Shown in pieces: positions 15,169 to 62,826 of a stretch of DNA of 64,000 nucleotides. A program made the position numbers and the translations under genes. Source of the stretch: an uncultured Paracoccaceae bacterium (GTDB lineage: Bacteria; Pseudomonadota; Alphaproteobacteria; Rhodobacterales; Rhodobacteraceae). The notes below the pieces were generated by a model. It was given only the letters and a program-made list of their open reading frames with translations. It had not been told where the DNA came from and did not search any database. Numbering within the stretch: the stretch's first letter is position 1; the number at the start of each line of letters is the position of its first letter. The stretch covers positions 186,001 to 250,000 of the forward strand of contig CANMQO010000003.1 in the NCBI GenBank assembly GCA_947500055.1, read 5' to 3'.

Positions 15169-16137
15169 ATGCGCATTTACGTTGCAGGGCATCGTGGCAT
15201 GGTGGGGGGTGCAATTCTGCGCCGCCTTCGCGCGCAGGGTGAGCATGATTTGATCACCGCGACCAGTACGGAACTTGATCTTACAGACCAGGCAGCGGTG
15301 CGAAAATTCATGCAGAGCCAGAAACCTGACGCCGTGATTTTGGCTGCCGCCAAGGTAGGCGGGATCGTCGCCAATAACACCTACCCTGCACAGTTCATCT
15401 ACGAAAACCTGATGATCGAATGCAACGTCATTCACCAGGCTTTCGCAGCGGGCTGTCAGAAGCTTCTGCAATTGGGTTCGTCCTGCATCTACCCCCGAGA
15501 AGTGACCCAACCGATGGCCGAAAATGCGCTTCTGACCGGCATTCTGGAGCCAACGAATGAGCCCTATGCGGTGGCAAAGATCGCCGGGATCAAACTATGC
15601 GAAAGCTATAACCGGCAATATGGCACCGACTACCGTTCCGTGATGCCAACCAACCTTTATGGCGTGGGTGACAACTTTCATCCCGAGAACTCCCACGTAT
15701 TGCCCGCGATGATCAGGCGATTTCACAATGCGGTGCAGGACGGTGCGGATGAGGTTGTGATCTGGGGCACCGGCACCCCGCGACGCGAGTTTCTGAATGT
15801 CGAAGATATGGCGGACGCGTCGCTATTTGTGATGAACCTTGACCGGGTCACCTATGATGCGAATACCGACCCGATGTTGTCCCACATAAACGTTGGCACG
15901 GGTACAGATGTGTCAGTCCTTGAAGCCGCCCAGATGATTGCCGACGTGACCGGCTTTGAAGGTCGGATCACCTGCGACACGACAAAACCCGATGGCGCGA
16001 TGCGCAAGCTGATGGATGTCAGTCGCCTTACGGCGATGGGCTGGAGCGCACGCATCGGTCTGCGAGAGGGGCTGGCGCAAACCTATATCTGGTATCTGGA
16101 ACAACTGGCATCCGGTGCGGTGGTGAGGGAAAAATAG
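15169..16137 (+). CDS. fcl: GDP-L-fucose synthase
   Basis: [82 protein letters not shown]. Confidence 0.97.
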
Positions 16138-16240: not shown

Positions 16241-16289
16241 CCGATTTCACGGTCGGCAAAGTGTCGGCAGAACGTCGGACTTGCGTCGG
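16241..16289. repeat. Array of four GTCGG cores at exact 11-bp spacing
   Basis: GTCGG begins at 16252, 16263, 16274 and 16285; preceded by CCGATTTCACG; noncoding, upstream of the ABC operon. Confidence 0.75.
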
Positions 16290-29748: not shown

Positions 29749-29822
29749 ACACGAAATGTACGATATTTTTACTTGAAATATACCAAATCTGTGCCAACCT
29801 TCCTTTCAGGCGAAACATTTTG

Positions 29823-29838
29823 AAAGGAGGTGATCCAG
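29823..29838 (+). promoter_or_regulatory. Extended Shine-Dalgarno-like element AAAGGAGGTGATCCAG
   Basis: 16 nt complementary to the canonical 16S rRNA 3' tail (CUGGAUCACCUCCUUU); immediately precedes/overlaps GTG at 29838. Confidence 0.85.
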
Positions 29839-29894
29839 TGCATCATGAGGTATTGGAGAAGTGTGTCGGGACAACTTATGGGGGTCGCAGCTAA
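29838..29894 (+). CDS. Putative mini-ORF VHHEVLEKCVGTTYGGRS (GTG start)
   Basis: 7 nt from GGAGG to GTG, optimal spacing; ends TAA 29892-29894. Confidence 0.4.
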   Translation: MHHEVLEKCVGTTYGGRS

Positions 29895-29910
29895 GGCAGC
29901 CCTTGGCTGA
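29845..29910 (+). CDS. Putative overlapping mini-ORF MRYWRSVSGQLMGVAAKAALG (ATG start, +1 frame)
   Basis: ATG 7 nt downstream of the GTG, ends TGA at 29908-29910; peptide is plausibly amphipathic/basic. Confidence 0.4.
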   Translation: MRYWRSVSGQLMGVAAKAALG

Positions 29911-29960
29911 GAAGACCATAAGGTGGGCAACCTAACCGACCCGCCTCCGTAATTCAGGAA

Positions 29961-30051: not shown

Positions 30052-30101
30052 CCGATTTTGACGGTCGGCGTTGCGTCGGCTATGCGTCGGCATAACGTCG
30101 G
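30052..30101. repeat. Second array of four GTCGG cores at exact 11-bp spacing
   Basis: GTCGG begins at 30064, 30075, 30086 and 30097; preceded by CCGATTTTGACG; ends 14 nt before the arfB GTG. Confidence 0.75.
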
Positions 30102-30114
30102 ACCCTTTTGCACG

Positions 30115-30537
30115 GTGATAGAATTGCGCATTAACGATCAGATCGAGATTGCCGATTGGGAGCTGACCGAAAGCTTTACCCGATCGTCCGGCCCGGGCGG
30201 GCAGAACGTGAACAAAGTGTCCACGGCTGTTGAACTGCGTTTCGAGGCCGCGCGTTCGCCCAATCTGCCAGCCGCGGTCAAGGCCCGGCTGAAACGGTTG
30301 GCCGGGCGTCGGTGGACGCAGGAAGGCGCGCTGATCCTCTTTGTGCAAGACACCCGCAGTCAGGCCCGCAACCGGGAGATCGCCCGCGAAAGACTGGCCG
30401 AACTGATCGCAAAGGCCTGCGAGAAACCCAAACGCCGAGTGCCGACACGGCCCACCAAGGGATCGATCCGCAGGCGCCTGGATGCCAAGAAAGCACGGGG
30501 CGAAGTGAAAGCACTACGCGGCAAGGTGGAGGACTAG
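30115..30537 (+). CDS. arfB: Alternative ribosome-rescue aminoacyl-tRNA hydrolase (GTG start)
   Basis: SFTRSSGPGGQNVNKVSTAVELRF (GGQ motif) with basic C-terminal tail KGSIRRRLDAKKARGEVKALRGK. Confidence 0.95.
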   Translation: MIELRINDQIEIADWELTESFTRSSGPGGQNVNKVSTAVELRFEAARSPNLPAAVKARLKRLAGRRWTQEGALILFVQDTRSQARNREIARERLAELIAKACEKPKRRVPTRPTKGSIRRRLDAKKARGEVKALRGKVED

Positions 30538-61290: not shown

Positions 61291-62826
61291 ATGACAGCAT
61301 CAGCCAGAAAATCACGCAGCGGCGGGCGGGCAGCGCGGGTTGCCCTGCGTAACGCCCCATTGGCCGAAGATTTGCGCCCGGTGCGCGCCGGGTTGGAGGG
61401 CGGGCAATACAAGCCGCTGACCGATGCCGATGTGATGCGCATTCATGAGGCGGCGCTGAATGCATTGGAGCAAATCGGCCTGTCACAGGCCCCGCCTTCA
61501 GGGGTTGAGGCGATGACCAGGGCTGGTGCAATCCTCGGCGATGATGGCAGGTTGCGCTTTCCCCGCGCATTGGTCGAGGACATGCTGGCCAAGGCCGCGC
61601 GCAACATCACCCTGCACGGGCGCGACCCGAAACATGATCTGCACCTCTCGGGGCACAAGGTACATTTTGGCACGGCCGGGGCTGCGGTTCACATCGTCGA
61701 TCTGGCAACCAACACCTATCGCGACAGCACGGCACAGGATTTGCATGACGCCGCCAGGATCACCGATGCGCTCGACAACGTGCATTTCTTCCAGCGGGCG
61801 ATGGTCGCGCGGGATGTCACCGATAACCTCGAAATGGATCTGAACACGGTTTATGCCTGCTGCGCAGGCACGACCAAACATGTCGGCACATCCTTCAGCG
61901 AACCGGATCACGTCGCACCATGCATGGAACTGATCCACCGGATCGCCGGGGGCGAAGCCGCCTATCGGGCACGCCCTTTCATCTCGAACTCGAACTGCTT
62001 TGTCGTACCGCCGATGAAATTCGCCGAGGAAAGCTGCATCGCCATGGAACACTGCATCCGTGCAGGCATGCCCGTGTTGTTGCTATCGGCTGGGCAGGCG
62101 GGGGCCACAGCGCCAGCGCCGATCGCCCTGGCCATTGTGCAGGCCGTGGCGGAATGTCTGGCAGGGGTTGTGTATGTCAACGCTGTGTCGCCCGGACATC
62201 CGGCGATCTTTGGCACATGGCCGTTTGTCTCCGACCTGCGCACCGGCGCGATGTCAGGCGGATCAGCCGAGCAGGCCTTGCTGACGGCGGGTTGTTCACA
62301 GATGCACAAATTCTACGGTCTGCCCGGCGGTGCCGCTGCGGGCATATCCGACAGTAAACTGCCGGATATGCAGGCCGGCTGGGAACAGGGGATCACCAAT
62401 GTTCTGGCCGGGCTATCGGGACTGAACATGGTTTATGAATCCGTTGGCATGCATGCTTCCCTGCTTGGGTTTTGTCTGGAATCGCTGGTGCTCGGCGATG
62501 ATATCCTCGGGCAGGTCATGCGTTGCGTGCGCGGGATCGACGTGACCGAGGACAGCACCTCGATCGAGGCGATGAAGGCGGTCTGCCTTGGTGGGCCGGG
62601 GCATTATCTGGGGTCAGATCAAACACTGAATCTGATGCAGACCGAATATATCTATCCAACACTTGGCAACCGGATGAGCCCCAAGGAATGGGGCGAGGCG
62701 GATAGACCGATGTTGCTCGACAAGGCGATTGAGCGCAAAAATGAGATCCTCGCCAACGCGAAAATCCAGATTGATCCAGCGCTCGATGCGGAAATCCGGG
62801 CCGACTACAACATCTATTTCAACTAA
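61291..62826 (+). CDS. MttB-superfamily (trimethylamine methyltransferase family) protein, no in-frame amber codon
   Basis: LTDADVMRIHEAALNALEQIGL; LSGHKVHFGTAGAAVHIVDLATNTYRDST; DLHDAARITDALDNVHFF; uninterrupted 511 aa reading frame. Confidence 0.88.
   Translation: MTASARKSRSGGRAARVALRNAPLAEDLRPVRAGLEGGQYKPLTDADVMRIHEAALNALEQIGLSQAPPSGVEAMTRAGAILGDDGRLRFPRALVEDMLAKAARNITLHGRDPKHDLHLSGHKVHFGTAGAAVHIVDLATNTYRDSTAQDLHDAARITDALDNVHFFQRAMVARDVTDNLEMDLNTVYACCAGTTKHVGTSFSEPDHVAPCMELIHRIAGGEAAYRARPFISNSNCFVVPPMKFAEESCIAMEHCIRAGMPVLLLSAGQAGATAPAPIALAIVQAVAECLAGVVYVNAVSPGHPAIFGTWPFVSDLRTGAMSGGSAEQALLTAGCSQMHKFYGLPGGAAAGISDSKLPDMQAGWEQGITNVLAGLSGLNMVYESVGMHASLLGFCLESLVLGDDILGQVMRCVRGIDVTEDSTSIEAMKAVCLGGPGHYLGSDQTLNLMQTEYIYPTLGNRMSPKEWGEADRPMLLDKAIERKNEILANAKIQIDPALDAEIRADYNIYFN

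Follow-up and report, generated by a model that had tools for sequence, protein, structure and literature searches.

The stretch of DNA analysed here (the window) is 64,000 nucleotides long and spans positions 186001–250000 of contig C3 in a 3.97-Mb genome (G000). Directly ahead of its arfB gene stand four GTCGG cores at a constant distance from each other, raising the question of whether the repeat is a regulatory site for arfB or part of something larger. The features concerned are:

30064–30101, + strand: GTCGG array of four cores at an 11-bp period (GTCGGCGTTGC GTCGGCTATGC GTCGGCATAAC GTCGG), from reading of the sequence
30053–30063, + strand: CGATTTTGACG, the 11 bp ahead of the first core (compare CGATTTCACG ahead of the array at 16252)
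30102–30117, + strand: ACCCTTTTGCACGGTG, which fits the ACCCct..gCaCGGTG motif 3′ of many G000 arrays, from a position-anchored consensus of 66 arrays
30124–30537, + strand: arfB (RF-1/GGQ domain), with its probable start, from a Pfam RF-1 match (4e-22) and the starts of orthologues
16252–16289, + strand: second four-core array in the window, of the same family as the arfB array

The array ahead of arfB

Direct reading confirmed the cores described in an earlier note, at 30064, 30075, 30086 and 30097 on the + strand with a period of exactly 11 bp. The same note placed the arfB start at GTG 30115, 14 nt past the array, which is probably wrong. This GTG overlaps the ACCC....GCaCGGTG motif found 3′ of many arrays, and most ArfB orthologues align from codon 3 or 4, starting where TTG 30124 stands (MRIND or similar). 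On these grounds the GTG is probably not the start codon, and TTG 30124 is the likelier one.

A family of arrays in phase

The arfB array is one of about 70 near-identical arrays in G000 and is not a feature of arfB. Within the window, the three-core pattern with up to one mismatch gave four matches in two places (16252–16289 and 30064–30101), against 0.03 expected from dinucleotide shuffles. A GDP-fucose-synthase-like gene, ending at 16137, lies on one side of the array at 16252–16289, and a gene for the substrate-binding protein of a peptide ABC transporter on the other. Genome-wide, the four-core pattern matched exactly 60 times, or 68 times when one mismatch was allowed, and the three-core pattern gave 127 overlapping matches; a control pattern read backwards gave no match in G000.

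The phase is most clearly seen in the distances between pairs of GTCGG words over 1.37 Mb of G000. There were 209 pairs at 11 bp and 135 at 22 bp, with each of the other distances from 5 to 24 bp represented 1–15 times (6 at 10 bp). In the same 1.37 Mb, 58 arrays had four perfect units, eight had three and one had five.

Genes were called with an ad hoc, home-made codon-usage gene finder. None of 67 arrays lay within a predicted gene, compared with 78.7% of random 38-mers (P ∼1e-45). This control was used instead of coding-potential scoring on either side of the arrays, which was too insensitive (it called coding at only 28% of random positions). Chance and, as the earlier note had held, coding periodicity are both rejected: the arrays are far more frequent than shuffled sequence or the backward control would predict, and they lie between genes rather than mainly inside them.

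Spacing and polarity along the chromosome

Gaps between arrays were over-dispersed. The minimum gap in G000 was 9.3 kb, with one gap below 10 kb where 11.6 were expected; in G015, the genome of a sister species, there was one against 10.8 expected. G022, whose arrays use GTACA cores and whose chromosome is a single 3.9-Mb contig, has 57 arrays with a gap CV of 0.66 (p=0.0004) and two gaps below 10 kb (7.6 expected). The exception in G022 is an inverted pair of arrays 1.1 kb apart (C1:407997/409125). In G012 the over-dispersion was weaker, and gaps of 5–9 kb occur.

The arrays also have a polarity. In G000 the strand that reads GTCGG is more often the G-rich one (r=0.47, p=6e-5) and is unrelated to gene strand. 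The same tendency was seen in G015 (54 of 70 arrays, p=2e-8), which is not independent of G000 since the two have sites in common, in one contig of G012 (p=0.008), and in G272, a genome from another genus (p=0.04, a test in which some loci entered more than once). For G022, 35 of 57 arrays agreed with GC skew, which is not significant over the whole chromosome. Neighbour-run statistics on array orientation were not significant, so that the polarity rests on GC skew. The G-rich strand that carries GTCGG is presumably the leading strand.

Conservation and dialects among relatives

G000 and G015 share 51 orthologous array loci, and the four-unit array is kept at 47 of these. Between the two genomes the cores are 97.3% identical, the spacers 78.4% and the adjoining 40 nt 63–65%. 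The middle spacer is the most variable and changes in concert, being commonly CGATGC in G000 and CCAGAC in G015. Where units have been gained or lost, this has occurred in whole 11-bp steps with the phase kept.

Across 249 Rhodobacteraceae genera, about ten or more three-core matches were found in roughly a dozen, and each array-rich genus has its own spacer style (e.g. TATYRC). Matching arrays among the relatives listed were in Rhodobacteraceae, and the matches listed include Salinihabitans flavidus, Shimia, Pseudooceanicola, Roseovarius, Celeribacter halophilus and Candidatus Rhodobacter lobularis. G272 surfaced unexpectedly through the backward control, and its arrays have GGCTG cores at the 11-bp period. 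Two of these arrays (among loci L257–L286) have TTATCCACA, a DnaA-box-like sequence, immediately ahead of the first core.

The core word differs between relatives at the same locus. At the arfB site within the genus, GTCGG arrays are present in G000, G012 and two further genomes, one of which (G023) has six units, and GTACA/GTATG arrays are present in ten genomes including G022. G014 has a GTGCA form there; no array was found at this site in G015 or G026. Dialect switching at orthologous sites was also seen at locus L178 (in four genomes) and at locus L180 (in one). Four-core GTAYR patterns gave 10–27 raw matches in each of nine genomes including G022 and G309, counts that are affected by GTAC being self-reverse-complementary, so that some arrays match on both strands; some of the G309 matches may differ in nature. 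The same pattern gave no match in G000, G015, G026 or any control, and one in G012. GTAYR arrays were seen in about a dozen relatives that lack exact GTCGG arrays. In GTACA genomes (loci L407–L436) the final unit is often GTACGTAC.

On a MutS tree the GTAC label requires at least two changes, and G022 (GTAC) falls close to genomes rich in GTCGG, in a group whose branching is poorly resolved. Within most genomes, arrays of all settings, whether solitary or part of the longer element described below, have one common dialect, and the arrays are kept at orthologous sites. Many genus-mates had few or no arrays under the cores tested. Other dialects may therefore have been missed, and the function is either dispensable or present in dialects yet to be seen. 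Nothing relevant on a repeat of this kind was found in the open-access literature on Rhodobacteraceae, Rhodobacterales or Roseobacter.

A candidate chromosome-binding protein

The finding of different core words at matching sites suggests a chromosome-binding protein whose recognition sequence has altered between relatives. Because the dialect is common to solitary and longer-element arrays, we infer one trans-acting, sequence-specific factor; an 11-bp period places the cores on the same face of the helix, which makes it likely that an oligomer touches the DNA once per turn, as cooperative direct-repeat binders such as Apl do (PMC7498355). Each turn would be contacted by one subunit (or repeat), and four would hence cooperate. 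The earlier note had proposed that an oligomeric factor binds tandem sites on one face of the helix, and this part gains indirect support from the invariant phase, the gain and loss of whole units, and the retention of cores while spacers drift.

Our preferred reading is that the arrays are some 70 sites for a single oligomeric DNA-binding protein with a chromosome-scale task, followed in dialect by its sites and supplied with new ones by a longer element; we regard this as evenly poised between right and wrong. Against it count the weak polarity in G272 and over the whole of G022, the short gaps in G012 and the close pair in G022, the arrays' lack of visible terminus depletion, and the genus-mates with few or no arrays. 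What the data show directly is the genome-wide family with its phase, its placement between genes and its over-dispersion, the retention of arrays at orthologous loci, the different dialects at shared loci, and an element that is present or absent at one locus; the binder, its oligomeric state, its co-evolution with the sites and the chromosome-level role all belong to what we infer. The distribution of the arrays makes a chromosome-scale role more likely than local regulation of arfB. The protein's task would most likely be nucleoid organisation, segregation or division control, as with the scattered Noc and SlmA sites. If the specificity of the binder shifted in a lineage, the arrays of that genome would follow, giving dialects such as GTCGG, GTACA/GTATG and GGCTG. 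The fuller proposal, of a chromosome-organising system in Rhodobacteraceae in which an oligomer reads spaced, polar 11-bp arrays, the code switches between species and a mobile element seeds the sites, is put forward tentatively, as a scheme with somewhat more against it than for it.

If the binder is real, these genomes would hold a natural series of specificity switches, with dozens of sites per genome following a changed protein, and the co-evolution of protein and DNA could be tested directly using array DNA from sister species. Scattered, spaced and directional sites would also be a candidate entry to chromosome organisation or segregation in these bacteria, in which no nucleoid occlusion protein of the Noc or SlmA type is known to us.

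A composite element around many arrays

About 40 of the G000 arrays sit in a longer conserved composite element of about 150–230 bp. Its 5′ part reads GCAACGTTCGGTGG...(variable)...CGAATCATnnGTTAAyGC..TTT...AAA..gC, followed by the array, and 3′ of the array comes ACCCctn.gCaCGGTG...cGgTTAAtGcaGCGcgCGGTGnAA..GTgAAtgc.gcGTTAAggtTT. As to terminal inverted repeats, we saw a weak GTTAACGC...GCGTTAAG similarity only, judged by eye. The remaining copies, including both window arrays, are essentially solitary.

Several observations on single copies may be recorded here. The composite elements of G034 (L289, L298, L305, L311) have arrays that mix GTCGG, GTACA and GTATG units, like intermediates. An array just 3′ of a gltD-like gene is kept in two other genomes, one with 82% protein identity; of the arrays at this locus (L169 9998–10051, L099 and L079), those at L169 and L099 carry an extra GTCGG after them.

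The composite element behaves like an insertion. An element of ∼205 nt lies 3′ of mutS, between two convergent stop codons, in G000, G026 and G015, which form one supported group on the MutS tree. In several relatives (G018, G030, G023, G004, G002 and others) the element is absent and the stops nearly abut, as expected if it had been inserted. Under the preferred reading, such insertion, often beside stop codons, would seed new sites for the binder.

The same evidence opens the main alternative, a REP- or MITE-like mobile repeat, in which a transposase or recombinase reading the 11-bp array would spread the composite element. Replication-linked insertion would then produce the strand bias, target immunity the spacing, and a change of enzyme the change of dialect. 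The gain at mutS fits this alternative, and so do the dispersed, intergenic copies; a strand bias and a minimum spacing are what fork-linked, immune transposition would be expected to give. The likeness to REP, BIME and MITE families extends to enrichment at 3′ ends, copy number that varies between species, and insertion-like presence or absence at one locus. However, the arrays have no dominant palindrome, and those families differ from them in respect of the conserved direct-repeat core and the genome-wide change of dialect. Solitary arrays long kept at arfB and 3′ of gltD, in the dialect of their genome, do not fit a mobile repeat. The cores are, moreover, much better conserved than their surroundings, and the sequence compared among G000, G015, G026 and G012 showed neither a target-site duplication nor a clean empty site. 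We consider a mobile repeat unlikely, with perhaps one chance in several. Even if this alternative is right, the host would be retaining solitary sites of the repeat family.

Origins outside the chromosome were also considered. A plasmid-borne element was rejected, the composite element having no match in 72,556 plasmid records. When a C was required ahead of every core after the first, the four-core pattern matched eight stretches in a viral collection; most of these look like unrelated simple repeats, and a phage origin was rejected. One match (L462) is a TATnnC-dialect array of Rhodobacteraceae type, perhaps host DNA.

Neighbouring genes and local readings of the array

The earlier note saw the array as the site of a regulator ahead of arfB, which found no support when the neighbours of the arrays were tabulated. 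The 67 arrays lay between codirectional genes in 39 cases, convergent genes in 19 and divergent genes in 9, whereas 5000 random intergenic 38-mers were codirectional in 2713 (54%), convergent in 886 (18%) and divergent in 1401 (28%). The arrays are thus over-represented at convergent gene ends and under-represented in divergent promoter regions. Only 29 of 67 have a gene in the same direction on their 3′ side. The genome-wide search with tabulation of downstream genes that the earlier note had called for gave neighbours without a common theme: the genes, among them those for ZnuA (zinc uptake), RimP, ketopantoate hydroxymethyltransferase, peptidyl-tRNA hydrolase and an aminotransferase, are unrelated, and no common function was found. 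Among 30 array-adjacent genes searched for a clue to autoregulation there was one Fur-family gene and one BrnA antitoxin gene, with no pattern.

These data bear on the possibility that the arrays are operators, on which a global regulator would control adjacent genes such as arfB. Direct repeats at 11 bp are a usual mark of cooperative regulators, and some arrays, that of arfB included, directly precede a start codon. Against this stand the scarcity of divergent settings, the enrichment at convergent ends, the missing functional theme and an orientation independent of gene strand, and we judge operators improbable. MraZ, named in the earlier note as an analogy, fails as the factor. The mraZ gene was present in all 10 genomes tested, two of which (G028 and G016) have no exact GTCGG or GTAYR four-core array, and mraZ itself has no array: in G000 it lies at C4:57091 and the closest array, at C4:83963, is some 26 kb away. 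An arfB-specific operator or an MraZ site was rejected on gene context together with the mraZ tests.

Phased AT and GC segments might instead position gyrase or another topoisomerase, a role that has been suggested for extragenic repeats lying at the ends of genes. Such a topology site would suit the preference for gene ends and a conserved element of ∼140 bp in which GC-rich core and A-rich spacer alternate every 11 bp, but the core words are exact and the dialects differ by genome, which implies that bases are read specifically and not bendability alone, and we think this highly improbable. We give hardly any credence to an RNA-level element, in which the array transcript would fold, with its outer cores (1 and 4) and its inner cores (2 and 3) paired, or bind an RNA-binding protein: a hairpin is predicted for the window array (z = −2.2), but it is a wobble hairpin with 0 of 11 pairs covarying (covariation term zero), both array directions relative to genes occur, a nested hairpin is incompatible with arrays of three, five or six units, and Rfam models gave no match to the arrays.

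Comparison with known systems

Direct-repeat arrays with cooperative binding are known from the ParR–parC (type II partition) centromeres, which have an 11-bp period in plasmid R1. These form a single plasmid locus beside parMR, whereas the arrays described here are chromosome-wide. The DNA uptake sequences of Neisseriaceae are a genome-wide short motif with lineage dialects; they consist of very many single short motifs, in contrast to about 70 arrays of four units that keep a distance from each other. A KOPS-like skew to the leading strand is strong in two genomes (G000 and G015) and less marked in G012 and G272; over G022 as a whole it is not significant.

MraZ operators have a short core two or three times at 10 bp, (AAAGTGKN3)3 in Mollicutes, and HsdC operators have one repeated at 11 bp (PMC5282649). 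Both resemble the arrays in having a short core in tandem, and HsdC shares the period. The 10-bp period of MraZ differs from that of the arrays (209 pairs at 11 bp, 6 at 10 bp), and MraZ and HsdC sites occur in one or a few promoters while the arrays occupy dozens of sites with no promoter bias. Apl, the recombination directionality factor of phage 186, binds direct repeats spaced by about one turn of the helix in a highly cooperative manner with spreading, presumably with one monomer per site (PMC7498355). It binds at a single attachment site and a single switch region, rather than at dozens of chromosomal loci.

The number and scatter of the arrays resemble those of Noc and SlmA sites, which are functionally similar to each other and lie as tens of discrete sites around the chromosome. 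Noc, a single sequence-specific oligomerising protein, has about 70 such sites (NBS) in Bacillus subtilis (PMC4331003), and the specificity of ParB and Noc can be switched by four residues (PMC7383237). NBS are palindromic, whereas the arrays are directional direct repeats. NBS are also absent from the terminus region; in G022, where ori and ter were placed roughly by sampled GC skew, the 57 arrays leave no unusually large gap and no terminus depletion was seen.

Other features of the window

Two further features of the window were recorded. Positions 62344–62443 match the Rfam model PYLIS_3 (mttB) with 54 bits; this is probably an mttB homologue rather than a sign of pyrrolysine use. Within 29820–29960 is AAAGGAGGTGATCCA, which would pair over its full length with the 3′ end of a typical 16S rRNA. 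It is followed by a possible 18-codon frame (MHHEVLEKCVGTTYGGRS) and a terminator-like hairpin, and the downstream region can be recognised ahead of arfB, as a conserved sequence, in many members of the genus.
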